From Sclerodactyla briareus (Eukaryota > Echinodermata > Holothuroidea > Dendrochirotida > Sclerodactylidae): a stretch of DNA of 64,000 nucleotides. The notes under the pieces were generated by a model. It had not been told where the DNA came from, did not search any database, and worked only from the letters and a program-made list of their open reading frames with translations. Of the stretch, positions 20,327-63,790 are shown in pieces (positions within the stretch are counted from its first letter, which is position 1; the number at the start of each line of letters is the position of its first letter). The position numbers and the translations under genes were made by a program. The stretch lies in the NCBI GenBank assembly GCA_026419785.1, contig JAODTK010002610.1:186001-250000 (forward strand). The letters run 5' to 3'.

Positions 20327-20494
20327 GACGAAGAGTTGTGCCAATGCACGCCTCTTCACTGTTGCGGTGGAGGAGGGGGATACCGAAGCTGTCATCGACA
20401 TCCTGATAGCGAATGGAGCGACGTGAATCTATACTGTGCTGGTGAGGCGTACCCCTGCATGTAGCGTGCTACCTGAACCGCCCAAGCTGTAGAG
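20327..20494 (+). CDS. TRPA1: TRPA1 exon: N-terminal ankyrin repeats
   Basis: First recognised exon, preceded by a 'ccacag' acceptor and followed by 'gtgggt'. It opens in phase 0 with DEELCQCTPLH, continues after a one-base shift as AVEEGDTEAVIDILIANGA, and after two more shifts as DVNLY and YPLHVACYLNRP. These are two ankyrin helix pairs (TPLH...AV and YPLHVA) and correspond to the repeats starting 'NTPLHCAVEKN' in vertebrate TRPA1. The shifts sit at a TT and a CCCC run. Because the match begins well inside the ankyrin domain, one or more upstream exons, including the start codon, are missing. A minus-strand LINE ends less than 100 bp upstream. Confidence 0.8.
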
Positions 20495-21161
20495 GTGGGT
20501 ATATCCAAAGAGATCTGTGGAGGGCCGGTGTCGTGTGCACTTTCAATAAACATTGTCAGAACATTTAAGAGCGAGAGAATCGGTGACTGAATGGTGGCGT
20601 GGACGCGGAGTGAGTGTAAGGAAGCATGAAAGAGTGGGTGAATGGGTTTGTGTGTGAGCGGGTAAGTGGACAAATAAGTACATATTTGGTATGTGCGTGT
20701 TGTGGTGTAGGTGGGGGGTGTGTGTGTATGTGCGGTGTGTGTGGATGTTGTATGTAGAGCTCTCAGGTAAGTGCGTGCATTAGAGAAGAGTAAGCAAGTG
20801 ACTGGTGTGGACGTGTACGAGTAATGGTGTGCGTAAGTGGAAGGATGCGGGGGGGAGTGAGGAGGGCGTTGATTGGTGTTAGGAAGGGTATGAGGGGGCA
20901 AGAAAGGGAGCGAATAGTCAAGCCGGCAGAACATCGTTGGTGGTCGGTTCGGAGGAAAAATTGGAGTGCCCAAGGACAACTAAAGATGAAAGTTAAACAG
21001 GTAGAGATTATGTCCTGGTACTGGTTGTAAATTCGTTACGCTTTACCAAACTGGAAGTCGGAAAATAAGGCGGTGCGTGCATGGCACTCTAAATCAGTGT
21101 TGAACAATTGAACAGTTGTTCACTAAACATGTTCAACAAGTAAACAGTATACAGCTTTATT

Positions 21162-21475
21162 GGGGATTCGGGTAGCTCGGTAGTTAAAGCTTTGACTGGT
21201 GATGGTGGGAAAGGTTGCGAGTTCGACTCCCAAAGGACCGATCAACTTTCCGATGTACCCTTGGCAAGGTACTTTGTCTCCATTGCCTCGCCCCACCCAG
21301 GCGATGATTGGGTACATGTGAGGAATTTCGTACAACCTGTGCCTACAAATGGGCAGGAACTTATACTCTCCGGGATTGTTGGAGAGCGCACCGGTCCTGT
21401 GATCGATGTAAATCTGTGGAGCGCTTGAGTATGGGACGTTGGAAAACGCGATAAGAATGCGGGATTTTCCAAACA
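21162..21475 (+). mobile_element. tRNA-derived SINE
   Basis: Starts with a tRNA-like head: A box 'gggtagctcggtagttaaag', B box 'ggttgcgagttcgactccc'. A body follows with 'cccttggcaaggtactttgt' and 'gcctcgccccacccaggcg', and near the end 'tggagcgcttgagtatggga'. This arrangement is common in SINEs of marine invertebrates. It lies in the intron before TRPA1 exon 21632. A true tRNA is excluded by the unpaired stem and the 240-bp body. Confidence 0.82.
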
Positions 21476-21631
21476 TTATTTGAAGCATTATATCATTCCT
21501 TCATTTTCTATAATAAACAGGAATGTGACAGTGGGACAAATCTAGGAGAGAAGGAAATGGAGGATAGGCAAAAAGTAAAAGAAAAACAGCCCCAAAAATC
21601 TGTGAAATGTACTCACACTGTGTTCGTCTAG

Positions 21632-21734
21632 CTCCGGTAGGTTTGCGCCCGTCAACATCCGAGGCGGGGATAAGTGGCCAGACTCCGACGCATTACTGTG
21701 CCCTCAGTGACAGCTACGAGGCCGCTAGAAACTT
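21632..21734 (+). CDS. TRPA1: TRPA1 exon: ankyrin repeat
   Basis: Reads GAPVNIRGGDK, then after a one-base shift SGQTPTHYCALSDSYEAARNL, ending at a strong 'gtgagt' donor. The acceptor is 'gtctag' (exon start 21632) or 'cggtag' (start 21641). The GADVNxR loop followed by G.TP.H.CA is an ankyrin repeat boundary. It corresponds to the vertebrate TRPA1 repeat just before the 'KWGCFPIHQAA' repeat, and the next exon supplies that repeat. Confidence 0.75.
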
Positions 21735-22340
21735 GTGAGTTACCCCACAATCCGAACAGAGACTTTTTTTTTACTTGACAAGTTCACACTGCCTAATTGT
21801 TCACGTGATGTGATTTGAATTTGATTGATTGTGAAAACAATTTCTTCATTCAAACCTGATTAAACGAAGTGGCCTGGCCACGTGCTTGTATATGAATTGC
21901 CAAAGAAATAACAAAAATCCCTCAGTTACAGGAACAAAATAATTCAATGGAATTTCCCAATCCCTACACTAACCTCTAACGTGGAGCAGTAGTAAAATTT
22001 GAGATAACAAAGAGCTCTGATTAAGAAACACATGTATATTCACGCCAACCGAAAGCAAGACTACGAACGTTTTTTATTTGGAAGGGACAAAGGCATAATA
22101 GATGCCGTTTCTCATTGCAGTCAGGTGAAGCACAATTTCTGCACTTCTCTGAGCAAAGGGGTACACAATTCGTGGCATATTGAAAGAAAATTCGGATTTT
22201 TTTATTCCTCTTGTAATTTCTCTGCCCAATTGTTTGTCATGCCACGTTTGATTGGTTACTATGCGTTATGACTCACTATAGTACACCTCCTCAATTGTGC
22301 TAACAACATTAGTTGGGTAGGTTTGTTGCTTGTTTTTTAG

Positions 22341-22457
22341 TCTTCAAGATTGAATCAAGCCAGCGCTCTGCCATTCCGACAAGTACGGGATTTCCCCAAT
22401 CCACTGCGCCGCTTACACACGCATCAAGGAGGGTTCTTGACCTACTGTTAACAGAGG
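22341..22457 (+). CDS. TRPA1: TRPA1 exon: ankyrin repeat (SPIHCAAY)
   Basis: The acceptor is 'tgttttttag' and the donor 'gtaaga'. The frame KPALCHSDKYGISPIHCAAY is followed, after a one-base shift at a GGG run, by VLDLLLTE. It parallels the vertebrate TRPA1 stretch with 'NKWGCFPIHQAAFSG' and 'CMEIIL'. A further shift lies near the 5' end. The exon ends in phase 1, which fits the start of the next exon at 25291. Confidence 0.85.
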
Positions 22458-24239
22458 GTAAGATCGCCTCTTCTCGCAACACACTTTATACTCCCCGTGA
22501 TCCATCGACTTTGGCCCAACCGCTTTCCTCCCCCGCTTCTACACCGCCATCGTCATTGTCCCTGACAATGGAAGTATACTGCCATTACCTAAACCAAAAC
22601 AGAAAGTATTCCTTTTGGCCCAGCAGTGTATAGGGTTTGTATTTACTCTGTACTATATTATTGTGTTTTACTCTACTGTGCGTGGTATATTGTTATTATG
22701 CTCCATAAGCATGGTATGGCCATGTTTTTCCAATAATTTCGCCGAGGGAACAGTGATGCATTGTTCTTTTTTGTCAAAGAATGGAATTTCTACAATACCT
22801 CAAGATGCCAGTTTATGTTTTCCAAGCGGGACTGATTGAGACAGAGATTCACATTATTCTTCATAGGCCCCTCTTCAACGAACAACACAGGTATTAGCCC
22901 CTTTCCTCTTCCAAGTGCGCACCCATTCAGACCAATCGGATCAATGAATATTTACCTGTTGCTCCATGGGCCAGGCTAAAACTTGTAAAAGAGTGGTGCG
23001 ATCTTTTCCATATCTCTTGTGGTGTTTAATGCTGGCTTATATCGGTTGAGACCGCACGATCTTTAAACAGCCCGGCTATCTGGGCTTCGGTCGCCCTGCT
23101 TAAAACCGCTTTTCTCTCCAGTAGTGGAAATACCAACGTCCTGGAGAATGTAAAAGAATGGAACCGCGCGGGGTATGAACTGGCTCTCCCACGGAGTGAG
23201 GGACTTGTTCATTCGCATTGACATTTGTCTGTTCTCTTAATGTAAAGAGCTCGTACACGTCAAATATATGAATACTACACATTCAGCGAACTGGAATATT
23301 CAGGTACGTGCCACGGGTTCCAGCCTCCTCTCGGATGAATTGGTAGCCAGGTACCATTTCACTATATGCACTGGACTGATTTGCCCGTAGCAACAGTCGC
23401 TATGGTACCATAGTGGGTGTTAAGAACTCCATGAGGGGTAAACCTATTGTGGGGTAAACCCATGGTTGCCGGGTGAATCCTAGCATGAGGAGCACTCGCC
23501 TAGACAGTGTCCGCCCAATACCTGGGCCGTCCATTCTCTGATTCTACTGGATTACATATTCACGGATAAATAGGGTGGTCGGAGAAAAGGCTTTTTTTGT
23601 GTAGCTGCTGCATTATATGTTGGAATTCCCTTTCACAAGAATTATGGAAAGTAAGACTTCTATGCATGTTTTTTTCTAGAGAAGAACCTAAAATCGCACC
23701 TTTTCGTGTAAGTCGTTCGTCTGGTAGGAAGGTTTTTGTTGTAGCTACCTGTAGCTACCTGTCCGTTAGTGTGTTTTTTGTTTTGGTTTTTTCTCGATAT
23801 TTTTAAGCTTTGCTCTGTTCTGCGCTCAGAACTGCGTATAAGACAGGATATATGTATGGCGTGAGCATCATCCTCTTATGACTGAAGTAACTAGACTCTG
23901 TGTTCAGCACAAATCGGAGACGATCGTTGGGTGTCTCGGTATAGCAGTGCTCGCACGAGGCTAAAAACGAGCCGCGGATCAAGAGTCGCAGAGTCTTGAC
24001 AAGACTACTTCGCAGGTATATTGGGTAATCTGGGGAGCAGGTTATACCATTACCAGGTCGCTTGCCAGACCGAGGCTTAGGAAGGATCGGAAGCGATAAA
24101 TGGACGTGGATTGGTGCCTTCCGAAACATGCGTGATAAAGTGAGGGTGAGAGGGTGAGGTCTGTTTAGCGTAAGATTAGATTAAGATTCGGGTTTATAGT
24201 CTTGTATCAAGGCAGCGCCTCGATATCTTCACACGACTA
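22458..24239. other. TRPA1 intron without further features
   Basis: No exon seen. Sequence at 22.99-23.52 kb has the flavour of an interspersed repeat ('gggtaaacccatggttgccg') but no family was identified. Confidence 0.5.
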
Positions 24240-24536
24240 GCGACTTAATCCCCCCTGGTCATTGGTAACTTGATGAAGACCTTGCCTGCACCACCCAGGA
24301 TGCACGTTCGCTCACGACCTACTACACCCCTGGCAGCCAACGCAGCGGCGCCTACTTCCGTTACCTCACAGGTACCCATTTTTACACGTGGGTGGCGTGA
24401 GGACATTCGAGGAGACATGCCTTGTCTAACAGCACTGCGGAAAAGCCCTCGGGCTTCCAATGGGATTCGAACTCGCAATCTCTTGATCTGAACGTTCCGG
24501 AGCTCTACCGACTGAGCTAATCCGCCCTCCTGCCGT
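24240..24536 (-). mobile_element. tRNA-derived SINE, minus strand
   Basis: Read on the minus strand from 24536: 'gggcggattagctcagtcgg' with 'tagagctccgga' (A box) and 'gcgagttcgaatcccattgg' (B box), then a body unlike that of the SINE at 21.2 kb. The head resembles the tRNA-like fragment at 32.4 kb, suggesting one family with several copies here. Confidence 0.78.
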
Positions 24537-24721
24537 TAATCGACCACTACTGCCTTCCATACAGGGGCCTTACAAGTCTGCATGTCACATTTACATTGTC
24601 TGTGCTTTGAGGGCAGATAGGTCAGAGAAACAATTGTATGTAGAGTTAGCTAAACGTTGTGTTAGAATATTCCCCTTGTATAAAATAAACTCGACGATCG
24701 TTGTCTACACTGTGAAAAAAT

Positions 24722-24868
24722 GAGGTGTTGAAACAACACTTTCCGAGTTGGCTGAGGGACAATTCCTCTGAAGTGTTAAAATTCCACAATAGAAACTACC
24801 GTAACTCACTTATAACACCTCCGGGAAATTGTCCCTTGGCCAACCAGGAAAATGTTGTTTTATCACTT
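24722..24868. mobile_element. Foldback (MITE-like) element, long inverted repeat
   Basis: Arms at 24722-24779 and 24811-24868 are inverted copies of each other with a loop of about 31 bp. Shared blocks include 'gttggc', 'gagggacaatt'/'aagggacaatt' and 'aaacaaca'. The transcript could fold into a hairpin of nearly 60 bp with scattered mismatches. No coding capacity. Lies in the TRPA1 intron 22458-25290. Confidence 0.8.
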
Positions 24869-25290
24869 AGTGTGTGTATAAAACAAAGAGTTCCAACTAA
24901 CAACTGAGAGAGTTATACTCATTACGCATTCATGAAGTTCATTTATAATTTTGTGAGCGTTCATCAACTGCAATTTTCAGGATAATATGAATGATGTTCT
25001 TTGACTGCCACAAATTCCTAAACCACATGAAGTATCATTGGGTTATTATTTAATACCAACCTTCAGCGACGCCACAATCCAATTAACTTCCAAATCTCTG
25101 GGAATATACATGTCGCGTTTTGAGGGAAAGGTCAAATTTACTTATGAATCAGTTCATGTGGATTTTTTTGTTTTGAGACTATATATGTCAAGCTAAGGTC
25201 TGAAAGGGGGTGCCTATTTCCGATGCCCTACAAGGCTTGGATCACCAGCATCGGGATTACAAACTTATTCCAGTTAATCATATTTTTCAG

Positions 25291-25435
25291 CCGGAAAGTG
25301 TGGGTACACTCGAGCACAGCTTCTATCTTTTACGACAAAGAGGACAACAACTCCCTTGCACGCGGCAGTCAATAGCGGCTGTCTTCCAAGCGTCCAGGTC
25401 TGCCTCGAATTCGGAGCGCACTAGATGTTCAGAGC
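25291..25435 (+). CDS. TRPA1: TRPA1 exon: ankyrin repeat (TPLHAAV)
   Basis: After 'tatttttcag' the frame reads GKCGYTRAQLL, TTTPLHAAVNSGC and VQVCLEFGA, then after a single-base shift LDVQS, before a 'gtgagt' donor. Vertebrate TRPA1 has 'EEHGYSRQLHI...ATPLHLAVQNGD...CLDNGAQID' at this point, including the unusual GYxRxQL insert between ankyrin repeats. That insert makes the match specific to TRPA1 and not to ankyrin proteins in general. The start phase (CC completing a G from the previous exon) fits exon 22341-22457. Confidence 0.88.
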
Positions 25436-25465
25436 GTGAGTACACATAGGTTGTCGCCTACCATA

Positions 25466-25632
25466 TTATTTATTATTTTATTTATTATTGTATTATATAT
25501 TATGATTATTATTTTATTATATTATTATTAATTAATACTACCTCTCTACTACTACTATAATTACTACTACTACTAAGACTACTACTATACTATACTAATA
25601 ATACTACTTAATACTACAATATTACTACTAGA
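25466..25632 (+). repeat. (TAT)n and (ACT)n compound microsatellite
   Basis: TTATTATTTTATT units pass into CTACTACTACT and ATACTA units. Begins about 30 bp after TRPA1 exon 25291-25435. Confidence 0.85.
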
Positions 25633-27051
25633 GATTCTCAGAAATAAGGGGGATACCTATCTTCATGCATTTTTGAATGAGAGTCCCGGGGGGCAACTAG
25701 CAGCATAGCAATTAGAATTGAAAAACAACTTGTATCCTGCTAATATTAAGTTCGTGTGTGAATACCAATAATGGAAATGATGAAAACACATTTAAACCAG
25801 CCCGCCTGGATGGGACTATCGCAAAAAAGTCGTGTTATTTATAACGAGGCAGGAAGCAACAAATGTTTACTGGAACGCTTCCACAAAATTGCTTTTTTTA
25901 AAGTAGAATTGATGTTGTGATCCTGGTACAAAGGGCTTCCGGGAGGTACGACGATAACACTAATAGTACACGACCCTAGTTTATAGGGAGTGTAGGTGAC
26001 ACCGCGGAATCACGACGTCTAAAGTAAATGGCAAGTCGGATCCGGAATCAATTAAACTATATTCCATCAAACAGTTTGTATCATTCACATCCACACAAAA
26101 AATGTACATAGGAGCCGCACTCAAATTAGTTGTGAAGGGCATGACCCATTACTTTTGAAAGACATCCGGAAAGTAGCTATTATATTTGACGATTCGCTCT
26201 AAATTCAGAGATCAGTATAAATAGACCTACAATATTCATAAAATGAGGAGAAACTGTGTAGATAATATCATGTGTTGTATCGTTGGTTTATAGATTTCGG
26301 TTAGGAGAACGATGTTACTTACGTACGTCTATCACTTTGTACGTTAGTTACGAATATATCAGGACGAAGTATTAATATCAATTACATGGCCCATTGGATA
26401 ATATAGTTTTGGGAGACCAATTTCTGTCGATGCACAAGCATATATTATCTGCTTGAATAACATAGAAAGCATATTGGTCTAATCGAAGAGTCGGAAACTG
26501 GTCTGCTTAATTATCTGATACTGATATAACAGTGGGGTGTGCTTCTAGTTGTTGGCGGTATAGTACGACGACTCTTTGCTTACCAGCCTCCTTCACAAAA
26601 CGTATGACCGTAATGACGTCAAACCTTCACTGAACGTATATTTACAGATCCAATCAATATTATTATAACACCACACCGATTAGGCCGTACACAATAGGGC
26701 AATCACCACTGTACAAATTGCTCCTCTGAATAACATGGATAGAATTGCATTGAGAATCAATAAATTCTCCTCATCAGGGTTCCACTTTCCGTTCCGCCAT
26801 TTCCTAATTTCAAGAAGTTCGGAAATCATGTGTTTTGCATCAATTACCCAATCTTTCAATCAATTAGAAAACATTGAACATCATAAATAAGATTCTGTAC
26901 AGTAATAAACGATGAAACGCCATGGACGACTTGGGGAATTGGATGACGGCCATCGGAACATTGCACACCGATACCATAGCCCCCATCAGTAACGGCTAAT
27001 GAATACTGATCATACAGCAATTTGGGAAGCACTAGGCGCGTAACCGAGAGA

Positions 27052-29353: not shown

Positions 29354-29487
29354 TCGTCGAAGTGTACGCCGATGCACCTAGCCTGTTCCCAGGGAGCGTT
29401 GGACATCGTGCGGATGATGCTGAAAATGAGCAAGTCACCGAACACACTGAGCATGCGTGATAGGGATCACATGACACCACTACACAG
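29354..29487 (+). CDS. TRPA1: TRPA1 exon: ankyrin repeat (TPMHLACSQGA)
   Basis: Intact exon with no frameshift: acceptor 'cccctctgtag', donor 'gtcagt'. It reads SSKCTPMHLACSQGALDIVR and ends ...RDHMTPLH, with the last codon split AG|A across the intron to the next exon at 31423. It matches vertebrate TRPA1 'GRCTAIHFAATQGATEIVKLM ... ETMLHRA'. The 134-nt length is phase 0 to phase 2, exactly what its neighbours need. Confidence 0.9.
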
Positions 29488-31422
29488 GTCAGTATTAGGA
29501 AGCAATCCCGAAATATCCACACTTCCGGAAATGTTGAGCGAGTAGCTATACAACAACACAATATCATGAAAAAAACTCTGACAATCCGTTCCAATGAGCC
29601 ATTTCGTAGATGGCTCGTGCCTCATGCGCATGCGTCATTGTCCTCAACTCTGCCAAGTTCAACATCCATAGTAGTTCTAGAGAATTACAGCGGACTGTGG
29701 AAACTTATCACAGGGGAATCGATCTGTTTCGAAGTAGGGGGACGAGGTTGGGGCGAGGTTGACTGAAAATGACTACCGAAGCGGAGCAACACCAAATATT
29801 GACTTATCATACCTCCCAGATCGCCAAACCCCTTTACTTTCAGTCATTGAAATGTTACCGACAAAGTAACGAAATAAATCGACAAATACTGTTACGCCAT
29901 CCATTGGGAACTATGGCCAATGGTGTTGGGGTATCTCAATAGAGTGCCACTATTGCTTGGCACGTATCAATGAGACAATTTCGTAAGAAATGGTTCACTC
30001 AGATTGAAACTAAACAAAACGTTATCATGGTGGTGGAAATCATTTGCAAGTATTACATTTAAAAAAACCTACAATAAAATCCACCTTAAAAAACTCATCA
30101 GACACATCCGAACAATTATATATGTTTATGTATGACGTTTCAGGATAAGAGTGGTCCAACCAGGAATAGGCTACTGAAATCCAACTTGCTGGATTCTCCG
30201 TGTAATTGAGGAGAACTAGACCAAGAAAATATGCAATCCAGACTTTTACTTATGGTCTACAACTCCTAGACAGAGCCAAGTAGGAATTCCTACCAGTTTC
30301 ACCCGATCACGGGAGATTGTTACCCCAATATTTTACCTCACTCAGTCGCAGCTAAAGTGGGGGCGCCCCCCCCCTCCCTCACCCCTAGAATATCACAACG
30401 CCTCTAAACTTGAAACATGCTTACCGGATAGGCCTATTTCCATGCACTTGAGACAGTTTGGTCAGAATCCCCAGGTATTGCCCGATTAACATTGTAACGC
30501 TCGGGCAATGACTGAATTCTTACGACGAACTCACTTATTATAAGACATATGATCAACCCGAGATTTGCATTGTGGTCGTTCGATTTGTTCTATCTAACTT
30601 TATAGATTGCTGAATCAACACCTGCCCAAACTCTCAATTTGCTGAACCTTTCAATAGCAGGCCCGTAGGAACAGATGTGGACGGGGGGGTATTCTTCCCA
30701 AGATTGTGGAGATTCTCCAAATATGGGCTTCTTTGATTCCTCGATCCCTTGTCCAACATGGCAACCATGAAATAGTGCCGTTCCATTGAAAACTATGGTA
30801 AACAACCAGGTGATATAAATGAGAAAGAGAATGATCGTGCTGGACTGATCTGAATTTTTGAATTTCTGGAATCAGATCGGGATAATTTCATATTATCTGA
30901 CTTTTGGTATACATGGTATAGGGGCTAGGAAAGCGGAACTTAGGGGTGGGTCGTTCGAACCCCACCCCCCCATCCTCCCTGGCTAAGGGCCTGAACAGTG
31001 CACCGAGTTGGTTCATATTGTCATATGTCGTCTGCTTATTAAACCATCTGGGAGGGGCTGCGTAATAAGTCAATATCACACATATTCTTTAGAGAACCAA
31101 GTAGTAGACTTAGAATAGAATCCTCGAGATTATTGAAGACTGTCCAGAGAGAGTATAGAAGGGGACGTCCTGGTTAAACCCTGGTTAAACCCATACCCTC
31201 ACTGAATGTGTATTGTTAAATCATGAACATGTTTGAAATCATCATGCTACTTACAACACTCCGTTAACCACACCTTGGCGACACAATGTGCTATTGGATT
31301 CGTGTATGATTGGAGAGCTTAGGGGGAAACTCCAAATAACATTGTAATGCTGTGTACCCCTGAACGAATCACTGATATGAAGCGCAAACTAATCGTAGGT
31401 TGTTTGTTTTTCGTTCCCACAG

Positions 31423-31471
31423 AGCTGCCATGTTCGATCACATAGAGATAGTCAACCTGTTGCTAGACGAG
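31423..31471 (+). CDS. TRPA1: TRPA1 exon: short ankyrin exon (AAMFDHIEIVNLLLDE)
   Basis: A 49-nt intact exon with acceptor 'ttcccacag' and donor 'gtaact'. It encodes AAMFDHIEIVNLLLDE and ends in phase 0. Vertebrate TRPA1 has 'HRASLFDHHELADYLI' here. The LFDH/MFDH core is typical of TRPA1. The first base completes the arginine codon begun in exon 29354-29487. Confidence 0.88.
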
Positions 31472-32837: not shown

Positions 32838-33025
32838 GGTGCTGACATAGCTGCTATTGATAGCGATCATCGCACACCTCTTTTGCTGGAGTCGTCGAGG
32901 TCAGCTTGGCACGCCACGGTTGGCCTTAATTAGGCGGGGAGCCGACATAAAGGCCAAGGAATGCAGAAGACAAGAACGTATTACACCTGGCTGTCCAGGT
33001 GGAGGGAACCTCGATGCCATACGCA
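32838..33025 (+). CDS. TRPA1: TRPA1 exon: ankyrin repeats (GADIAAIDSDHRTPLLL)
   Basis: Acceptor 'cacttcaag', probable donor 'gtaaca'. It starts in phase 0 with GADIAAIDSDHRTPLLL, then SSRSAWHATVGL, and after shifts RRGADIKAK, NAEDKNVLHLAVQ and GGNLDAIR. Vertebrate TRPA1 has 'GADINKIDSEGRSPLILATASASWNIVNLLLSKGA' and 'NFLHLTVQ', including the SxSW motif. About three one-base shifts are needed to keep the frame. Confidence 0.87.
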
Positions 33026-33677
33026 GTAACAGCTGTCAAGATTTAGGATGGGAGCTAGGATAATGGGTGCAACTAAATCATGGGGCATGCGGATGGGAGG
33101 GGGGGTGCCAATATGTTTACGGAAGAAGTAAGCAGTCACGCATATGTGTGCACGATATCTAACGAACGAAAGCCTGCCTGTGACGAGTTGAACTAGAATT
33201 GGTGCTGGATTAATTGCACGTTTAACCAGGAAGTATTTCTATTGGGTTCGTATGGAGGAATTGGTCATGGTCACGAGCGAGATCGTTTAACAAGGAAAAC
33301 CAGTACGAATCCGAAGAAGGTAAACATGCATATAATTCAACCCCGCAAACGAGTATTTCCTTCGGTTTTCGTGGTGAATAAATTTCTTCTAATTCAACCA
33401 GAGAAAACGCTCTTTAATTCAATGCTAAGAGGCCTAGATATTCTCGTTGCAGGGGGAAACGAATTCCTACAAGTGAGAAATGGTATTTAAATTTGTTACT
33501 TAGTGGTGGGGAGACGATAATAAGGAACTAGACTGAAATGAAATATTATTTAAGGGAAATATCCTTAACATACCTCTTGTTGAAATGCAATTGTTATTAG
33601 AAGGAACTGATTGAAACGGATGAAATACTAGAGATGAAATTGGAAGAATATTTCTTTCCCGTTCCTTTCTTTCACAG

Positions 33678-33846
33678 ACGACAGTCTTTGTTCACCTGTT
33701 GAACGAGACAGACATGCACGGTGCACACCTATCCACTACGCGACAGAGGGCGGTAACATCAAGTCCGTACAAGGGTTAATCGACCTCGGTGCTGTCGTCA
33801 ATATTCGAGATAAGAAGAAACAGTCTCCCCTACATTTTGCCGCAAG
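33678..33846 (+). CDS. TRPA1: TRPA1 exon: ankyrin repeats (CTPIHYATEGG)
   Basis: Intact 169-nt exon, acceptor 'ctttcacag', donor 'gtagtt'. It reads RCTPIHYATEGGNIKSVQGL, then IDLGAVVNIRDKKKQSPLHF and AA. It is equivalent to vertebrate TRPA1 'GCTPLHYACRQGGPGSVNNLL...KSKDKKSPLHFAAS'. The DKKxSPLHFAA motif is very close to the vertebrate protein. No frameshift is needed. Confidence 0.93.
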
Positions 33847-33914
33847 GTAGTTATAGAGTATCAGAAACTGGTTTGCCTACATACCACTCCGAGCAAAGTT
33901 TCCATACATTACAG

Positions 33915-36225: not shown

Positions 36226-36904
36226 AAGGCAAATGCTCTCAGGGACGCGCCCGTTTAGTGACTAATGTACCTTTGTGTAATACACCCATCATATATGGGT
36301 TCGAACAATCACCAAATATGTCAATCATAATACAGCTACTGGGAGTGAGAGTGGTGCAGGAGAAGTGTCCTCCGATACTAACGTTTATACCTCGATACTT
36401 TCCCCACAAGCGAATGTACTCAGTCATATTTTGTCATCGCAGAGAGTAGCAGAAATACCCCCTGTGATCCCCAGAAGAAGGCTAACCGTACAGGAGAGTA
36501 TCTAGATATTTTATAAGGCATTTCCGATGTCCCTCTCCTCTCGCAAGATACGGAGATATTACTTCCTGTAGAAGCTGCTCATAGTACCCATAGGGATACC
36601 AGATTATCAACGGACACTGACAGCAAAGGACGACACCGCCAGACACATGGCCGCGATGAAACGGCAATAAAAAGGTCCGTCTCTGCTCATATCGCGTGGA
36701 GCCCTATTACCACAGGTAACGGACTTTTGGATAGGTTTCAAGCGACTTTTCTACAACATATCAGCGATTCGTCCGGAATAGATATGGCTATTAAAACGCA
36801 TGTGGTGTTCCACAGAAGTCCATACAGCGTACACTTCTTCATTCTTACCTCTACATGGTGGTAGACCTATAAAACGTCTGGATCACAATAAAGAATTGGG
36901 CGGT

Positions 36905-37768: not shown

Positions 37769-37886
37769 AGACTTCACTGGACAGACCCCGATGCATCTCG
37801 TCGCCGCTCGGAATTGGCTAACCAGACACGATGAGACTGCTGTTCTCAACTCATACCTTCCTTCTGGCCCAACAGATGACGATGGG
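37769..37886 (+). CDS. TRPA1: TRPA1 exon: ankyrin repeat (DFTGQTPMHLVAARN)
   Basis: Acceptor 'tttactgcag', donor 'gtaagg'. Open throughout: DFTGQTPMHLVAARNW, then HDETAVLNSYL and TDDDG. Vertebrate TRPA1 has 'DLHGMTPLHLAAKNGHDKVVQLLL' and, one repeat later, 'DRLDEDG|NTALHFAAREG'. The exon ends in phase 0 after DDDG and the next exon starts NSPIMCA, so the two join cleanly. One ankyrin unit present in vertebrate TRPA1 seems to be absent or compressed here. Confidence 0.82.
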
Positions 37887-38363: not shown

Positions 38364-38533
38364 AATTCTCCGATAATGTGTGCCTGCTAGGGAAGGAACA
38401 GGTTTCTTCCGTCAAGTTCCTGATGGGTCTTGGGGTCAGCCTTTACGGTCAACAAGAACGGCGGAAGACATCATGGCATCGTCTTCAGTACCAGGGGAAC
38501 GAATGTCGCTCTGGCCATTGTTGCCCACGACAG
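38364..38533 (+). CDS. TRPA1: TRPA1 exon: last ankyrin repeats
   Basis: Acceptor 'cctttttttcag', donor 'gtgacc'. The reading moves through all three frames: NSPIMCA, then AREG, then QVSSVKFLMGLGVSLYG and ERRKTS, then back to the first frame for TNVALAIVAHD. Vertebrate TRPA1 has 'NTALHFAAREGHAKAVALLLSHNADI' and 'KEVVLTIIRSKRW'. Three one-base changes cancel out, so the 170-nt length still gives the right exit phase (AG|G TGG, Arg-Trp) into the exon at 42058. Confidence 0.85.
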
Positions 38534-39204: not shown

Positions 39205-39383
39205 CACTATGTAGATGTATGTAGGTAGGTATGTATGTCTGTATGTATGTATGTATGATGTATGTATGTATGTATGATGTCTGATGTAGGTATGTTCTAT
39301 TGGGTCCAGTAAGTGTGGAAAAAAACGGGCGAGGAGCTTTTTGGCCACACTAACAATGGCTAATATACGAAGCCATGGATTAA
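39205..39383 (+). repeat. (GTAT)n microsatellite with flank, second copy
   Basis: Repeats the 38.9-39.09 kb arrangement: GTAT units, then 'agtgtggaaaaaaacgggcg', 'ccacactaacaatggc' and 'gaagccatggatt'. The LINE fragment follows directly. Confidence 0.88.
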
Positions 39384-40800
39384 TACGTCGAGTCACTGAA
39401 TCGGAGGTGCTCTCTGCCACTAAAATCCCTGCCAGCTCTAAAAGTACACCCGGGCACGACCGCAGATGATTTTGGGGAGTACCAGTCCGGCCGCAGACGT
39501 CAATACATCCCATATCTAGGGTTGGCGATCTTCAACACCTGCCTCACGAACGGTAACATTCCTGCCGATTGGAAGAGGTCAACCATTCGACTGATTCCGA
39601 AGGCGAGTCATGAGTCTGTTGACCTTTCTGACTGGAGACCAATATCGGCCGATGCTCCCGACCATCTATAAACTGTTAATGAAGTTATTGTCTCAGGCGA
39701 AACTATCCCATGGATAATGAAAACGTACAATAATAGATTCCACCTAAACAAAAGGTCAGTACCACGTAATGGATTAAGAACACGTATTCTGTCTGAAAGT
39801 ATTTGCTTGTATTTGTGACGTCCGTCACAGACAGGACAGGAAGTGTATGTAACAATTTGCGGCGATTTGGACGATGCGTTTGGCAGTACACCCAGAGTTT
39901 ATGATGAAACATCTCAAGGTATTTCGGGTCCCCCACAATGATGTGATTGATTGTAAAAAGGGACATTTAAAACAACTCTTTCTTTAAAGTTGAGTCCAGC
40001 ACTGGTTATACAGATTACTCCATAAAAAAGGGGGATATTAAAGGGTGCCCTCTTTCGGTTTTGTCTTTGAGCAGGGAATCGATTCTGTGGTTAAGATGGC
40101 CTGATTGTTGGTGGTACGATGTCGTTGGCATTCCTAATCCTGTCCAAGGAATGTGACACATCGCCATATGTGGAACTCATGAACAGAATATTTCCGCAAT
40201 TGTAATAGGGCCAGCTCTTTTGTTACTGCGACCGGAATGAACATCAAACATAGGAAAGTTGGTCCTCCATGGCCAGAGGTCTGGGAACAATTGGAGCAAA
40301 AGAGACGACACGTTGGCTTCTCAGTTTTATATGCAAAATGAGCCAATCCCTAAACTAGGTAAAACAAGTAAATATACCTCTGGGGTTACGACATAAGCTT
40401 AGATGGTTAAAGCCCTATGATGCACAACGATATCTATTGTTGAAGAGGTCAAATGACACACTCAAACAAGATCCACGAGGTCTGTTGCTTGTCTCTGCCA
40501 AAAAATTCAAGTATTAATGAAATGGCTATGTCGGAAACTGAACTTCTTTTTCAGGCAAGATCAGCTCCCCTTAAAAACCTTAGGCAATGGAGGGACGACT
40601 TGTTAATATATCCTTGATGGTTGCACTTAAACAAATCTTCTAACAGAGATGGAATTTCATCCATCTGTCGGCAAGGGAGGCTGGGGTTATTGATCCTTCG
40701 ACAATGTATGTTGCAAAAAAAATTATCCTTCTGCTCAGTCCCTCAATTCCGATGATCCCCCAGAACAAGGTTCAGCGACCGTCTATTCCAACTTCATTAG
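39380..40800 (+). mobile_element. R2/NeSL-like LINE reverse transcriptase fragment, decayed
   Basis: Plus-strand fragments in shifting frames: LAIFNTCLTNGNIPADWKRS and TIRLIPKA, DLSDWRPIS, PTIYKLLMKLLSQ (39510-39700), then GDLDDAFGSTP (about 39860-39893, RT motif A as in 'LDLRNAFGSVPH') with FMMKHLKVFRVP, then IKGCPLSVL (about 40038-40064, motif B). This wording is typical of R2/NeSL/CRE-type LINEs. The YADD box is not visible and the copy has many stops. The 5' side abuts a (GTAT) microsatellite. The open frame at 40816-41157 may be its tail but has no recognised domain. Confidence 0.75.
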
Positions 40801-47089: not shown

Positions 47090-47159
47090 ATCATGGTCTA
47101 TTACAACAGAGTAGACCTTCTCTCTCACCCGGTGTGGGAAAGTATCTCGAGATGAAGTG
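47090..47159 (+). CDS. TRPA1: TRPA1 exon: pre-S1 (MVYYNRVDLLSHPV)
   Basis: Acceptor 'gttctctcccaag', donor 'gtaagt'. It reads IMVYYNRVDLLSHPV, then after one lost base beside a GGGAAA run YLEMKW, with Trp split TG|G. Vertebrate TRPA1 has 'AMVQNNRIELLNHPVCKEYLLMKW'. This signature just before S1 identifies the family strongly. In vertebrate TRPA1 this pre-S1 region contains the cysteines and lysine that electrophiles modify; none can be placed with confidence here because of the frameshift. Confidence 0.92.
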
Positions 47160-47214
47160 GTAAGTGTGACGTACACTTGTGAACCAATTCCTGTATAATT
47201 ATACAGTCAACTTA

Positions 47215-54658: not shown

Positions 54659-54822
54659 GGCATCACTATTTCCTGGGCCGTGAATTACACCGAGTGGACT
54701 CTCTACGTCACCACGGTACTGTTCGGCATCCACTTTATTTTCCCGAGTGTGCCGTCATTTTGGAATCTCGGAGCTATCGCTGTCTTCGCCTCTTGGTTCA
54801 ACCTAATGTTGTATCTGCGTAG
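54659..54822 (+). CDS. TRPA1: TRPA1 exon: S3 and S4
   Basis: Acceptor 'tctttcttcccag', donor 'gtaggt'. After a short out-of-frame HHYFLG it reads VNYTEWTLYVTTVLFGIHFI (S3), then FPSVPSFWNLGAIAVFASWF and NLMLYLRR (S4). Vertebrate TRPA1 has 'ISNVLEWIIYTTGIIFVLP' and 'QWQCGAIAVYFYWMNFLLYLQRF'. The GAIAVxxxWxNxxLYLxR pattern is diagnostic of the family. The last codon is split before the Phe of the next exon. Confidence 0.95.
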
Positions 54823-56197: not shown

Positions 56198-56324
56198 ATT
56201 TACGCTGTCGGTAATATAAGTTATGTTATTGAGATCTCAAGACAATATGGTCCACGTTGCTGAATGTCTTTCTGGTCCTTATCATCGCCTTGCTATGGCC
56301 TTCTTAGTATGATGTCTATTGCAA
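56198..56324 (+). CDS. TRPA1: TRPA1 exon: S4-S5 linker and S5
   Basis: Acceptor 'catcgttccag', donor 'gtaagt'. It starts (R)FTLSVI, then VMLL, then after shifts EIS and TIWSTLLNVFLVLIIA, AMAFLV and MMSIA. Vertebrate TRPA1 has 'RFENCGIFIVMLEVILKTLLRSTVVFIFLLLAFGLSFYILL'. At least four one-base shifts are needed, making this one of the most disrupted exons, yet each fragment matches in order. Confidence 0.83.
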
Positions 56325-56402
56325 GTAAGTACTCGCAAAAAAGCATGAATGATGCTTGAGATGATTATGTAACAAGATCCTCGTGGAGGGAACTCGCGGA
56401 AT

Positions 56403-56482: not shown

Positions 56483-56559
56483 GTCCCGTGACTACATAAG
56501 CAAAGATTTAACCTGCTTGATGAGGATGAGAAATATCAGAACTTATTATGTCATTAGAA

Positions 56560-56746: not shown

Positions 56747-56939
56747 GAGAACGAGGCGTTAAGTACTGGCCCTTGTCTATATTCGCGTGATCCCCATGAG
56801 TGGCGGGCGAGCTAGACTTCATGAATTCCGTCTGGAGCCTGCGACGATGGAGACCCAAACACTATCAAGTATTCGCCCATCTGCTCTTCTTCCTCGTCCA
56901 TGGCTCATTATCTGATCCAGATCCTCTGATGAATCGCTG
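56747..56939 (+). CDS. TRPA1: TRPA1 exon: pore loop and S6
   Basis: Acceptor 'ttatttacag', donor 'gtaaga'. The sense frame reads VKYWPLSIF, then after paired shifts VIPM and GELDFMNSVWSLRR, then HYQVFAHLLFFL and, shifted, MAHYLIQIL and LMN. GELDF is the TRPA1 selectivity-filter motif (insects GELDF/GELEF, vertebrates GDINY). The end fits S6 'FVPIVLMNLLIGLAVGDI'. The exon ends in phase 0 before IGLAVGDI of the next exon. Confidence 0.85.
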
Positions 56940-57127
56940 GTAAGAATCAGTCATGGCAGTGTAATCTATGTCGGTTAACAATTCAGCTCACTGCCGACAA
57001 AGGCCGGCGATCCTCTTTCAAAATCGGTTTCTGTAACGGCCCCTGTAGTCTGAGGGCGCTAAAGGACTTCTTTTTTCCTTCCTTTTTCAATATTGCCAGG
57101 CGCTCATTCTCGCAGAGCGCCGTAAAA

Positions 57128-57537: not shown

Positions 57538-57563
57538 CGGGGGGGGGGGGGGGGGGGGGGGGG
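57538..57563 (+). repeat. Poly(G) run
   Basis: About 26 consecutive G residues, next to 'ccctttctgtgatcctttag'. May mark a decayed poly(G/C)-edged element. Confidence 0.85.
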
Positions 57564-58119: not shown

Positions 58120-58420
58120 CTATATGCGTAGGCTGACACTATGACAGTGTGTTCCAAAGTTTAGAGAACCGGGGTGATACGCGACGTCATAACCGAATAG
58201 CAACGTATAACAAAGGCTCTGAATTTTATCGCGGAACTGGTGCCCGGCAAGAACTCGGAGTACTGCATGTACGCGATACGGCTGGGATTTCGATTTAGGC
58301 CACTGACGTTCTCTTGCGAATGAACCTAACTCCTGGAGAGGGGCGGAGAACCATACAATCACTGCGTACTCACAAGGGGTCTTGAGGGGGAAGTTCCATG
58401 CAAAACATGAAGGCACAAAT
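58120..58420. repeat. Interspersed repeat copy (possible family A relative)
   Basis: 'cagtgtgttccaaagtttag' and 'tgcccggcaagaactcggag' follow the pattern of family A. The minus-strand frame across it has no recognised domain. Confidence 0.35.
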
Positions 58421-59324
58421 TACAAGTCGATGGGTGTATATATGATATAAATATTGATGTGTGTTTTATCGATAGTAGCCTAACGTTCAACCGCGATTAT
58501 ATAACAATGCACCAGAGTACAACAGTGAACCAGAGGCGATACCGTGTGGATGGTGGTTGCGAACCCTCTGCGAAATCGTGCTGTCGTCAGAACTTCTCAT
58601 GTTGGGGATTCAGTGGCTTTACACGAGGCACTGCCAATGTCGCAGATCCAGGAATCCAGGATTTCATCTGGGGAAGGATACCTCAAGGCAAAGCCGAAGA
58701 GATCAAGGAGGGTGAACAGTATGCAATTTGAAATGCCTCAAATCACAACATCATCTTTTAGTAATTGTTTTTCCATGTACTGTGAGAATTTGGAATGGAC
58801 TGCCCCAGGATGTAGTGATGTCAAAAGAATCATGCGATATCAGAGGGACATTTTGTGCCTACTTGAATTTTAGCGTTAGCAATTAATGAATTTGACAGCC
58901 ACTCTAGTGACCTCCTAGTTAGGCTCCCTCGTGGAAGATTCAGTCAGGAGGCAAACCAGCAAAGTACAAATTACAAAGTAATATGATTCAAATACACTCA
59001 CCAGCATGACCCTAGCCCAATGGCTTCCACCCTATTCTCTATTTATTCATATTCTGAATTTATTGCACTCATCTTTGTCTCGCCTGAATGAAATTCAGGA
59101 AAAGACTTAATGGTCACTTTGGCGCGTGTGTTGTGTTATGTGTGTGTATGTCACACTTCCTTGTTAGCAAGGATTTCTCACAAAACCATGAGGCCGAAAT
59201 TACGGTATTTCATTACATTCGTTTGGGGATTAGGCTTATTTGAGTAATTTCATTGTTTAAGAACTCGTTCGCAAGATTTACGTACGCAAGAACTGTGTGC
59301 TACAGTGCATGTAGGTTGCATGTA

Positions 59325-59725
59325 GGACCTGGATGACAGGTGACCTAATTAGATTTTCACCTAAATTAATGCAATTAAGGGGTCTATTTGGCATAATTTA
59401 ATGCGAAGTTTTTCAAAGTTTGTTGGATTATCACGAAACTTTGGTGTATGTGGTCTACCATGGTTCCCCAAGAAATTGGAGAAGTGAAGTCGGGGGTCAC
59501 TTGATGGTCATTTTTAACATTTCTAATTTTGCCTATTTTAATTGCAATTTTTGAAAGTTTTGTTTGAATTTCCCTTTCCTTCCTTTCCACCACACCTTTG
59601 GTAGCTGTGATCCCACCTTTGATCCTGATCATTTTGACTGTACAGCTGGGGGGGGGTCAGTAGAGGTCATTCATTTATGTGCCTAATTTGCATAATTATT
59701 TCCAAATTTCCCACTTTGATAAAGA
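59325..59725 (+). repeat. GGTCA-rich repeat (family C)
   Basis: 'gggtcacttgatggtcattt', 'gtcagtagaggtcattcatt', 'tttggcataattt' and 'cctaatttgcataattattt'. Same vocabulary as 31.85-32.06 kb; a diverged interspersed repeat. Confidence 0.5.
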
Positions 59726-60084
59726 ATTTCGCCCAACTCAGTAATGTATGGTTCCGCTAAAAAAAAAAACAGATTTTCTGGAATCTGATGTGTTTGATTT
59801 TCATAAATTTCTTAAATTCCTCACATAATAAACTTCTGTTTTAGAATGAAAGCCACAGCACTGAGGATTAGTAAACATACGCGTAGCACCCTGTGAACAA
59901 TTTTAACTTTAAAAAACTAACTGTCTGTTCTAAACAGCGCCGCACAAGCAAACCCAAAAACCCCTCTCTTAACCCTAAACCCAACCAATTTGATTAGGTT
60001 GATAAGCACCAAAAATACTGTAACATTTTTCTTTCCATTTTCCTTTTTTTTTTCTTCTTGCCTCTCATCCTTCCTCGTCTTCTT

Positions 60085-60240
60085 AACCTGTGGCTGACAC
60101 CCAACCCCAAAAACCCCAAAAAAACAAAAAAAAAAAAACGCACCCCCCCACCCCCAAAAAACAAAAAAACACAAAAAAAAACCCCAAAAAAAAAAAACCC
60201 CACCAAACAAAAAAAACACCCCCCCCCCTCCCGGATATGT
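60085..60240 (+). repeat. A/C-rich low-complexity tract
   Basis: Alternating A-runs and C-runs (CCCCAAAAAAAC units), ending 'cccccctcccggatatgtgc'. Confidence 0.9.
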
Positions 60241-60384
60241 GCCTGGAATTGCAACCCATTTTTCCCCTTCCTTTTTAGTTTGTGACATAATCTGTCATCA
60301 CCTATGTTTGTTTCTTCACGGCCTTGTACTTTTAAATGGTAAATGTTGGGAGGTTTCCTACGAGAAATATTTTTTTTGGGACAC

Positions 60385-60512
60385 AGTAAGGAAGGAGGGG
60401 GGGGGGAGGAGAAAGAAAAAAAAAGGGGAAAGAGGGAGGAAAGAAAAGGGGAGAAAGGAAGAAGGAAAAGAGGAAGAGAAAGATAAAAAAAATGGGAAGG
60501 AAGGAGTCCAAG
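60385..60512 (+). repeat. A/G-rich polypurine tract
   Basis: About 120 bp of almost pure purine on the + strand, including a G-run and an A-run. Confidence 0.92.
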
Positions 60513-61978
60513 GGAGGCGGTAGTTTACATAGCCACAGCCCGGTGCATCTGTCTCATAACTCAGTTTTGTTGCGGTTTGTTGGGGGGACCGAGGTGGGGA
60601 GGAGTGTGTCCCACCTTCCTTGCTGCCGCCTTTGCTGCCACCTCCCTGCGCAGTCGTAGCTTCATTTCTGCGCATACTCATTGGACAAACAACAAACAGG
60701 CATATGAATAATAAGGAATTTCGATTTAAAGCAAGAAGCCTGGCTGCTAGGGGATTTAGAACATTCAAGTTGGATTTGGGTCAATAACTTAGTTGACTGA
60801 GTCGATAAAACCTTTTTTTAAATGGGTATTTCTGGAGAGAAGATTTTTGAGGGGGGGGGGGGCATAATAGAAAAAAAACATTATGGGACTTTTGTATTAA
60901 GAGTCAAACTTATTGTCTTTATTTAAGGATTTTATTCCATTGAGTGGCGGCGCGCGGGGCCGTGATCTCGACCAATCCGAAAGTCACATTGGGTCTACCC
61001 GATACACGTTTTGCATAAATTAGTTAATGGATTATTTCCATTAGGTCAAGGGCAGTGACTCGACGAATCAGAAAGTCGCATTTGGCCCACGTGGAACACG
61101 TTCCGCTGAATTATTGACAGGTCAGCCCCCATTTCGGAACTTTCATCGCTCTTTTGAACATCAATACTGGGGGGTGAGATTAACTTTTCACCCCCCTCCC
61201 ACGTTTCATTTTTCATCGCCGCCACTGGGGCTCAGCATTTCTGGAGTCAAAACCCATGGAGCGAAGCGACCCTATCAGGAGTGATTAACCAATCAAGAGA
61301 GGGTGTTGTTCTCCCGCTTCTCATCCATGTTCTTGTTGGCAATTTTACCTCGCATTGAGGCGATCTATGACACTGTACTGGAATTTTCTGGAATAATTAT
61401 AGATTCACAACACCTTAGTTTTTCACTTCCAAAGATGACAACTTAATTTTAGCATCCGATCGCGCTGCTGGTTAGCCTAGCTATAGGCCTGAAGATCATG
61501 CGTCAGGCAGTAACGGTATTCATAATTTCCCTTCTCCGAAGTTCTGTCACGGGGCAATGGGACCACGCACAGGACTTAACATTCTGTCTCGTAGCCCCCT
61601 GCTTTCTGTGAAACAGCTCATATAATTGTGGGTGGAGGCCCGTTTTCCTCATGGGGCAAATAATGCAAAATATTGCGCTTTGCAGGCGTTCTAGAGAATA
61701 AATTAAATTCGCCAGGCGGGGATATGAGCCCTCGACAGCCTCTTGCAGAGTTTGCGCTGAGGCGCTTCTTGCACCTGGCATTCAGACTGGTACTGTGGAC
61801 TCCACTGGAAGCCAATGGTCAATGTATATTATGACTTTTAGTACTTTCCCTTCATTAATTCATATGACAATCGAAACTTCAGCCCGAATTTCCCCAATTT
61901 CCCCAAAGTATCCGAACCGTGGCGTAAGCTACAGGTGTGGGGTTCCCTCCCCTGCGCTCCTCCGCTGAAAATTTATTT

Positions 61979-62010
<32 letters not shown>
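61979..62010 (+). repeat. Poly(T) run
   Basis: About 30 T residues following 'aaatttatttg'. On the minus strand this could be the poly(A) tail of a retroelement whose body is not recognised. Confidence 0.88.
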
Positions 62011-62891
62011 TTTCATTTGTGAAGAAAATTCTCACAAATCCTCTCACAATACGAGTCATGTGTACATGTGAACACAAAGTGAATTTTGACATGCGGCAGA
62101 ACTAACGCGCTTGAGATTGGGGCAATTCATGCCCACCATTTTAATGACGAAATGACGATGCCACTGCATCTCCTCCTTGATATAGGTCGGAAGGGCCATT
62201 CCTGCCATCTGGAGGCCTATTTGCGAACTTCTTGTACCCCCGAGGGGATGGGAAGCCGAGTAGGATCGGACAACTATCTAAAAGTATTAAATCGGCCGAC
62301 CGAATCGTGCAATGGTGACCACTCTTGCCTAGAGGCGCGATCGCCGCTCGAATCGGGCGACTCACAATAATCGGCCGAATGAGAATAATCGGGCAGTGTG
62401 ACCACGGCTTTAGTCGAACTGTGTCAGGTTTTCAAATATAAGAAAAGAAGGGAGAATCGCCGGAAGATTCCTTCGTTGGTGTAAACCCAGAAGAATATTG
62501 TAATGTTGGATTTGAACTTTAGTGTGTCCTCCATCGTCTGTCATATATTATGGTCTCCATTATGTATACTCGCCGAAAAATGAAACTTTGAAGAAAAAAT
62601 ATTGAATTTTATTCTTGTTGTTGCCCCACTGAGCTTATTGAAGCCCCATTCAAAAGCGAGTTGTCTGACTTTTCAATTTAAACCTCATTACTATAACTGT
62701 AAATAAGTTGATAGACAACAGACACATGACACTGCAGACTTAACACGGAACCAATGTACAATTAGATGTTTGAATCCTGCAGATGCATTTAAATAAGCAA
62801 TTAGGTCTATGGTGAAAGCGATAACCGTTATATGATATCTATCTACGAACAGGGGTCTGATTCTCTATCAAGATATCTTCGTCCACTTCAG

Positions 62892-63072
62892 ATCGGTCTC
62901 GCTGTCGGCGACATCGCCAGTGTTTTCAGAAGGACGCCCAGCTCAAACGGGATGGCTATGCAGTTGGAACTCACACGGAGCTGGAAGGCCGCTACCGTTC
63001 TGGTTCTGCGTCGAATCGACAAACCTTCCATGACTATATATCCTAACAAATATGTGTGTTTACCAATGGAAG
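62892..63072 (+). CDS. TRPA1: TRPA1 exon: post-S6 segment (IGLAVGDIA)
   Basis: Intact exon after 'cgtccacttcag'. It reads IGLAVGDIASVFRRT, then MAMQLELTRSWKAA, then RRIDKPSMTIYPNKYVC. Vertebrate TRPA1 has 'IGLAVGDIAEVQKHASLKRIAMQVELHTSLEKKLPLWFLRKVDQKSTIVYPNK'. The match is nearly residue for residue at GLAVGDIA, the AMQxEL helix and the YPNK end. The donor is weak ('gtctcg' after 63072). Reading on gives a stop at 63087-63089, but known family members have a further coiled-coil tail, so a splice is more likely. Confidence 0.95.
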
Positions 63073-63223
63073 GTCTCGAATGTCACTAGTATACATGCAC
63101 TGTTACCATTTGAGCACAAGATAAAATTTGTCATAATTGGCTTGAGTGGCAACCAACATGTGGAACCACTCACGGAAGCGGAAGAACCATGTCTCGCTTA
63201 GCACCCTTCTTGCTGTGAACCGT

Positions 63224-63380
63224 GCCCCGGACAAATCACCCACCGGACAATTCCCACCAGGTCAATTCCCCTCAACTGAATGTTTTTTGTGGTCAGAATT
63301 AGGGTTAGGGACTAAAGTTAGGGTCACGTTTGGTGGGAATTGTCCGGGTGGGAATTGTCCGGGTGGGAGATGTCCAGACC
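63224..63380. mobile_element. Inverted-repeat element with internal subrepeats
   Basis: The left arm 'ccggacaaatcacccaccgg' and 'acaattcccaccaggtcaat' is mirrored by 'tggtgggaattgtccgggtg', 'ggaattgtccgggtgggaga' and 'tgtccagacc' on the right. The centre holds 'agggttagggactaaagtta'. About 155 bp, no real coding frame. Lies shortly after TRPA1 exon 62892-63072. Confidence 0.68.
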
Positions 63381-63748
63381 TCGTGAATAACTAGTCTATT
63401 AACATGTCAACAGAGGGATTGTGTCAACGCTATAATTCCTGCATGCCCGTACACATAACATGCAGAGAGACTGCTTTTTAATGCCCTTGTAGCAAAACCC
63501 GAAAACTTTCCCAAATACACTGGCAGCAGTGGGATATTTATTCGAAATAGCTTAGGTCTTGATATAATATCCAAAAGATAGGTATTTGGTAATAAGTGTA
63601 ATGGATAGTAAACGGCCAGCATTTATGTATGAATTAAGGTTTTATGGGTTCATAGTTTTCCTTCCTAATTCTTACAGTCATGGTTGTATCTGAAACAAAA
63701 AGCTGGTCTCTCTGACAGTGAAGTTTGATAGATTCGCCATCGACGCAG

Positions 63749-63790
63749 ATTGCGCGAAAAGATGGCCGACTTCGATAAAATGAGATCAAG
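63749..63790 (+). CDS. Possible TRPA1 C-terminal coiled-coil exon
   Basis: A 42-nt segment between 'catcgacgcag' and a strong 'gtgagt' donor. One frame reads LREKMADFDKMRSR, a charged amphipathic stretch of the kind found in the TRPA1 C-terminal coiled coil. The phase does not fit directly to exon 62892-63072, so at least one exon between them would be unseen. The evidence is the splice borders and composition only. Confidence 0.38.

Follow-up and report, generated by a model that had tools for sequence, protein, structure and literature searches.

The 64,000-nucleotide stretch of Sclerodactyla briareus DNA analyzed in this study (hereafter the window; part of contig C2081) carries a gene that is a further member of the already known TRPA1 family. 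When Drosophila TRPA1 was aligned with the window plus 30 kb of downstream sequence by a splice- and frameshift-aware method, a score of 816 was obtained, whereas the reverse strand scored 217 and a shuffled protein 207. Human TRPA1 as the query scored 735, and its controls scored 198-211; the whole-gene scores were 3.5 to 3.8 times those of the controls. Shuffled controls comprised one protein at the whole-gene level, six in interval tests, and 20 in single-segment tests. Both the + strand and the exon order, from the ankyrin repeats to the C-terminus, matched TRPA1. The colinear exons that a preliminary description had read in the window were upheld in part by this alignment, which places them on the + strand, and its assignment of the gene to TRPA1-type channels was correct. 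The frameshift-tolerant protein-to-genome alignment that it had proposed as a check yielded a TRPA1 match far above the controls.

Thirteen segments, including one outside the window, were supported when tested singly; the 21 exons counted earlier were not reproduced. All 13 exceeded the best of 20 shuffled versions of fly TRPA1, some narrowly, and 12 of the 13 exceeded the best of 20 shuffled versions of human TRPA1. Identities pooled over the tested segments were 250/500 with the fly protein and 225/484 with the human protein. Tested alone, three segments (fly) or two (human) preferred an ankyrin repeat other than the colinear one. When the pieces were joined and compared with PDB, the best 8 rows were all TRPA1 chains (E = 1.4e-114 for human and 6.4e-106 for fly), human TRPA1 (PDB 7or0 and others) being the top match of these human-guided pieces; when the joined query was still shorter, fly TRPA1 came after a designed ankyrin protein and Ankyrin-1. 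Because human TRPA1 guided the joining, the main weight is placed on the reverse and shuffle controls rather than on the PDB list.

The ankyrin segments span fly model positions of about 122-514 (7ykr chain residue minus 65). Segment scores are given below against the best of 20 shuffles unless an interval test is named. A possible, weak N-terminal ankyrin exon lies at 20336..20466 (+), where the acceptor tested at 20334 was poor. In an interval test of this N-terminal stretch, human TRPA1 1-165 scored 74 (six shuffles, 49-68) and fly TRPA1 55 (48-54), the fly run being placed elsewhere than 20336..20466; the start near 20.3 kb proposed in the preliminary description is thus marginal. The ankyrin exon at 21664..21734 was weak alone (46 vs 42 with fly, 34 vs 33 with human) and in a non-colinear register for both proteins; its donor ranked in the top 3.4%, and its acceptor was poor. 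The exon at 22349..22457 scored 60 vs 40 with human TRPA1 in the colinear register and 47 vs 38 with fly TRPA1 in another register (donor top 0.9%). Ankyrin exons were also found at 25291..25435 (fly model positions 183-231; 89 vs 50; donor top 6%), at 29354..29487, which is free of frameshifts (106 vs 43; acceptor top 0.6%, donor top 0.9%), and, as a short exon, at 31423..31471 (50 vs 36; acceptor top 0.1%, donor top 1.4%). The exon at 32838..32998 (121 vs 37) was identical to fly TRPA1 at 30 of 53 positions; its 3′ end is uncertain, falling at 33034 or 33066 in other runs, and both tested donors were poor. The exon at 33678..33846, which encodes SPLHFAA, scored 145 vs 44, and its acceptor was among the best in the window (top 0.000 after rounding). 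The ankyrin exon at 36548..36715 contains several frameshifts and scored 72 vs 43 with human TRPA1 (colinear) and 53 vs 39 with fly TRPA1 (other register), with an acceptor in the top 1.9% and a donor in the top 1.4%. The exon at 37769..37886 scored 67 vs 36 with fly TRPA1 (colinear; acceptor top 0.3%, donor top 0.8%) and 43 vs 44, below the best shuffle, with human TRPA1. A possible last ankyrin exon at 38364..38533 has good splice sites but is weak: it was chained with fly TRPA1 alone and was absent from the combined-profile chain and from the interval test's choice. All of these segments lie on the + strand, as do those that follow.

Downstream of the ankyrin region, the pre-S1 exon (NRVDLLSHPV ... 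KYLEMKW) was located at 47090..47160 (71 vs 41; 14/23 identical to fly), followed by GTAAGT. No exon was established in the S1-S3 interval by the interval alignment test. The S4-region exon (GAIAVFASWFNLMLYL) at 54659..54822 scored 105 vs 38 with human and 91 vs 45 with fly TRPA1, with an acceptor in the top 0.1% and a donor in the top 1.0%. A possible S5 exon at 56198..56328, chained in some whole-gene runs, and a possible pore plus S6 exon at 56756..56940, recognized by the GELDF motif string and with its end read by eye, are both unproven; splice sites at the tested ends of the latter were poor. All five landmark motifs of the preliminary description exist as strings, but the S5-pore-S6 interval with GELDF aligned at chance level (six shuffles; fly scored 43 and its shuffles 38-51, human 42 and its shuffles 43-64). 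The post-S6 exon (IGLAVGDIA ... IDK ... YPNK) at 62892..63055 scored 117 vs 38 with fly and 136 vs 40 with human TRPA1. The C-terminal exon with QKMEI (89 vs 43) lies outside the window, at C2081:250870-250977 (L007:870-977), 870 bases beyond the window end, and the gene end formerly set at 63790 was therefore too early. The gene would extend from roughly 20-22 kb in the window to 0.98 kb past its end, a predicted length of about 43-45 kb with long introns on the + strand of contig C2081.

Splice sites were ranked with weights that are our own approximation, in alignments that required GT and AG; on this scale, 10 of 16 donor ends ranked within the best 6% of all GT dinucleotides in the window, and 12 of 18 acceptor ends had good surroundings. 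In Pfam searches of the ankyrin open reading frames, 29354-29542 matched Ank_4 (E = 1e-9) and 33638-33847 matched Ank (E = 5.5e-7), both above the curated cut-off and without a frameshift, and the third, 25278-25421, fell below the curated ankyrin cut-off. The S4 and post-S6 open reading frames matched no Pfam family. A whole-genome search for Ion_trans gave six matches, none inside the window. No tRNA was found in the window (searched with the bacterial code), and no Rfam match there reached the gathering score. Searches for COX1 and for Crust_neurohorm gave 0 matches; the control run alongside Crust_neurohorm was equally silent, and that negative carries no weight as a sign of absence. An alignment exon at 39314-39443 was rejected: its splice sites were poor, and it overlaps an open reading frame with a motif that we take to resemble retrotransposon reverse transcriptase, where Pfam found no reverse transcriptase. 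Segments that varied with the settings are not claimed; these lay at 9.8-18.4, 33.1, 39.7, 41.2, 43.6, 48.5-48.8, 50.8, 54.1, 56.7, 57.1, 57.7, 58.4, 59.6, and 61.9 kb, among others, and downstream at 64.2 and 73.4 kb.

According to the accessible portion of PMC5050203, the ankyrin array at the N-terminus of TRPA1 channels is long, with 14-16 repeats. The gene shares with Drosophila TRPA1 (PDB 7ykr) the ankyrin order, the pre-S1 motif, the S4 region, the post-S6 IGLAVGDI, and the C-terminal QKMEI; human TRPA1 scored below fly TRPA1 in most ankyrin segments. Its identity to the fly protein is under that of fly and silkworm TRPA1 (70%) and near that of fly TRPA1 and Varroa TRPA1L (48%), as given in the same portion of PMC5050203.

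The supported segments of the window gene contain 16 frameshifts in 1,494 nt (10.7/kb). Elsewhere in this assembly, genes for actin, tubulin, HSP70, and HCN gave 118 frameshifts in 12,258 nt (9.6/kb), with a range of 0-21.8/kb over 16 rows, three of them with 0. Frameshift counts vary with alignment settings. The control count leaves out the second exon at L041 and L043 (low in identity), the first at L053 and L035, the last at L034 and L036, and beta-tubulin runs at alpha-tubulin loci and vice versa; the overlapping L040 and L042 were counted once, and stops within inserted codons were left uncounted. Some control copies may be pseudogenes (for example, L049 at 21.8/kb), and the second HCN exon had moderate identity (18/39). 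The noise is uneven, some control exons being clean. Among the channel loci L001 and L003-L006, which were outside the aligner runs, L001, L003, and L006 appeared intact or nearly so, as judged by eye and not by count. Frameshifts are not specific to the window gene; conserved genes of the same assembly carry them too. They are best read as assembly errors, small insertions and deletions, and the gene most likely looks broken because the assembly is full of them.

These counts bear directly on whether the locus is a decaying TRPA1-type pseudogene, in which the frameshifts would be real mutations and the absent transmembrane exons would have been lost. Most exons are indeed frameshifted, clean exons exist in some other genes of the assembly, and stops appear once the stop penalty is made cheap (7-13 stops and 14-34 frameshifts over 2,361-2,912 nt in four whole-chain runs, weak exons included). 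Moreover, since S1-S3, S5-S6, and the N-terminal part were not established, a partly deleted gene is possible. Against decay, the control genes together show a similar frameshift density, protein identity is maintained between frameshifts, the 13 segments contain one stop (fly) or none (human), the sole stop being in an out-of-register segment, and the splice sites are mostly well preserved. Given the conserved-gene controls, we judge a pseudogene unlikely. It is still more improbable that the exons come from two or more adjacent ankyrin or TRP genes, or from chance plus repeats. Ankyrin repeats are common, some segments alone matched other repeats better, and the first PDB query placed other ankyrin proteins above TRPA1; however, TRPA1 order and strand were held throughout, at scores several-fold above the controls, and two paralogues in the genome show the same arrangement of pieces. 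Taken together, these data argue that the TRPA1-type channel gene on the + strand is, very probably, genuine and made up of many exons, and that its frameshifts are mostly base-level assembly errors and not decay. By analogy with its family, it would encode a cation channel with ankyrin repeats that belongs to a sensory cell.

The genome contains three or more genes of the TRPA1 type: the window gene, a second on C2081 in the opposite orientation about 135 kb away, and a third on contig C33. By search and alignment, ankyrin pieces are followed in both paralogues by pre-S1 and then post-S6 pieces; two of the pieces had weak search E-values (0.017 and 0.66) and were then confirmed by alignment. 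The three genes are divergent from one another, with some exon borders alike, and the window gene would be one of at least three old paralogues. With this number of genes, orthology between the window gene and insect TRPA1 cannot be taken for granted. Decapods have several TRPA1 or TRPA1-like genes beside an insect-type TRPA1, according to the accessible portions of PMC10795286 and PMC7067487, whose TRPA1-1, TRPA1-like1, and TRPA1-like2 are likened by description to the multiple TRPA1-type genes seen here. We tentatively propose, as a reading that could prove wrong, that the window gene is a lineage-specific paralogue, paired by an old local duplication with the opposite copy on C2081, and that the insect-type TRPA1 is the gene on C33.

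It is reasonable to expect that the window gene might be overlooked or divided by automatic annotation. Even tubulin and actin are partly frame-broken in this assembly, which calls for caution; because conserved genes are affected, gene predictions and pseudogene calls made from it need an error-tolerant method. If the proposed history is true, an old local duplication gave this lineage additional TRPA1-type channels.

A purpose-written protein-to-genome aligner, in which GT-AG introns and frameshifts were permitted, was employed with two references, human TRPA1 and Drosophila TRPA1; the fly sequence was compared with PDB chain 7ykr, the alignment end excepted. The assembly searched comprised 319 Mb in 3,171 contigs, and the contig carrying the window (C2081:186001-250000) was 311,946 bases long. 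When fly TRPA1 was aligned with the window plus 30 kb downstream, a score of 816 was obtained, compared with 217 for the reverse complement and 207 for the shuffled protein; human TRPA1 scored 735, and its controls gave 211 on the reverse complement, 207 with the protein reversed, and 198 with it shuffled. A combined profile, which had no control of its own, scored 663.5. Thirteen segments were also examined singly against 20 shuffles of each reference, and the best shuffle was exceeded by all 13 with fly TRPA1 and by 12 of 13 with human TRPA1. The best lone placement fell on a non-colinear ankyrin repeat for three segments with fly and two with human TRPA1; such misplacement is expected because ankyrin segments are repeats, yet it makes these segments weaker evidence singly. 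Pooled over the 13 segments, identities numbered 250/500 with fly TRPA1 and 225/484 with the human protein. By its sequence, a TRPA1-type gene is present in the window, as the preliminary description had claimed.

Each region of the gene was then scored with fly and human TRPA1 against six shuffles. The post-S6 and C-terminal region scored 173 (shuffles, 38-50) and 177 (37-52), respectively, and the region from pre-S1 to S4 scored 88 (33-48) and 78 (34-50). The pre-S1 exon alone accounted for 71 (fly) and 67 (human); most of the latter region's score thus came from this exon, and S1-S3 are not established by it. Scores were 55 (48-54) and 74 (49-68) for the N-terminal part, and 42 (31-48) and 57 (38-52) from the last ankyrin exon to pre-S1. 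The GELDF string, previously proposed as a pore landmark, was found in the window sequence, but the S5-pore-S6 interval scored within or below its shuffles (43 against 38-51 with fly; 42 against 43-64 with human). The frames around GELDF can be read by eye as a putative pore and S6, which is not proof. The post-S6 exon was located at 62892-63055, and the next recognisable exon, a C-terminal segment containing QKMEI, lay 0.87 kb past the window, at positions 870-977 of the adjoining 3′ DNA (L007). The gene end formerly placed at 63790 is therefore too early; a total of 21 exons was not reproduced. A 14-base tandem array (window:46405-46582; 12.9 copies, 97% matches) lay between two recognised exons. 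The ORF at window:39384-39668 looks, by a motif in it, like part of a retrotransposon reverse transcriptase, for which Pfam gave no support.

Of three ankyrin ORFs submitted to Pfam, two (at 29354 and 33638) passed a curated ankyrin cut-off without frameshift, and the third (at 25278) fell below it. The S4 and post-S6 ORFs matched no Pfam family, and a whole-genome search for the Ion_trans family matched six places, none inside the window. In a first joined PDB query, a designed ankyrin protein and Ankyrin-1 ranked above fly TRPA1; in a second, whose joining was guided by human TRPA1, TRPA1 chains were on top. Ranked among all AG, 12 of 18 acceptors came in the top 10%; ranked among all GT, 10 of 16 donors came in the top 6%. 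Where two ends had been tried, the better one was used. Acceptors at 22349, 32838, 36548, 47090, and 62873 ended in AAG rather than the usual pyrimidine-AG, as did the weak or rejected acceptors at 20334 and 39314; these ends are perhaps a further trace of base insertions.

The TRPA segments of the window gene contained 16 frameshifts in 1,494 nt (10.7 per kb) and one stop, which could reflect either decay of the gene or errors of the assembly. In control rows produced with the same aligner and assembly (six actin, five tubulin, four HSP70, and one HCN; L034-L043, L049-L054, and L002), 118 frameshifts and three stops were found in 12,258 nt (9.6 per kb; range 0-21.8, with no frameshifts in 3 of 16 rows). 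Because decay of so many housekeeping genes is unlikely, the frameshifts are best explained by indel errors in the assembly. The channel loci L001, L003, and L006, outside this count, were clean or almost so when judged by eye; base-level quality varies strongly from place to place. When the whole chain was run four times with other costs, weak exons included, frameshifts numbered 14-34 and stops 7-13 over 2,361-2,912 nt, so the exact frameshift count depends on the settings.

In genome searches, nine matches were listed when the transmembrane and C-terminal pieces served as queries and six when an ankyrin piece did. They belonged to the window gene and to two other genes, and none of the matches listed came from a near-identical duplicate of the window gene. 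The second gene (C2081:29494-71485, minus strand; L057-L059, L062, and L063) is oriented oppositely to the window gene, the outermost recognised pieces of the two being about 135 kb apart. Its ankyrin pieces lie at 69.6 and 71.4 kb, and its pre-S1, post-S6, and C-terminal pieces at 52.7, 33.4, and 29.5 kb, respectively. The third, on another contig (C33:134396-205893, plus strand; L056, L060, L061, and L064), is represented by an ankyrin piece (134.4 kb), a pre-S1 piece (193.9 kb; E 0.66 in the search), and a post-S6 piece (205.8 kb); the matches listed included none from its C-terminus. Local alignments supported all pieces of both genes as TRPA1-type, and some of the exon borders were alike. 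In two ankyrin exons, 25/44 and 21/47 residues were identical between the window gene and its neighbour on C2081. Against fly TRPA1, the post-S6 pieces, of unequal length, scored 147 (C33), 118 (window), and 91 (neighbour).

Fly TRPA1 is 70% identical to silkworm TRPA1 and 48% to Varroa TRPA1L (PMC5050203); on these figures, the 50% identity of the window gene to fly is consistent with either an old paralogue or an orthologue in an arthropod other than an insect. The crab Portunus is described as having two TRPA1 genes, one seemingly crustacean-only, and two TRPA1-like genes (PMC10795286), and TRPA1-like1 and TRPA1-like2 were reported in four decapods, without insect homologues (PMC7067487). 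Several TRPA1-type genes are reported in decapods, comparable with the three found here, a likeness of published descriptions rather than of sequences.

Taken together, the window gene is a real, ordinary TRPA1-type gene within an error-rich assembly, and its family is already known. Ankyrin, pre-S1, S4, post-S6, and C-terminal segments were recognised in it. In the TRPA1 family, four subunits form one cation channel, whose pore is gated chemically or thermally through the ankyrin array and pre-S1 linker. The product of the window gene would likewise be predicted to form a tetramer with a gated pore, and may have a sensory role.
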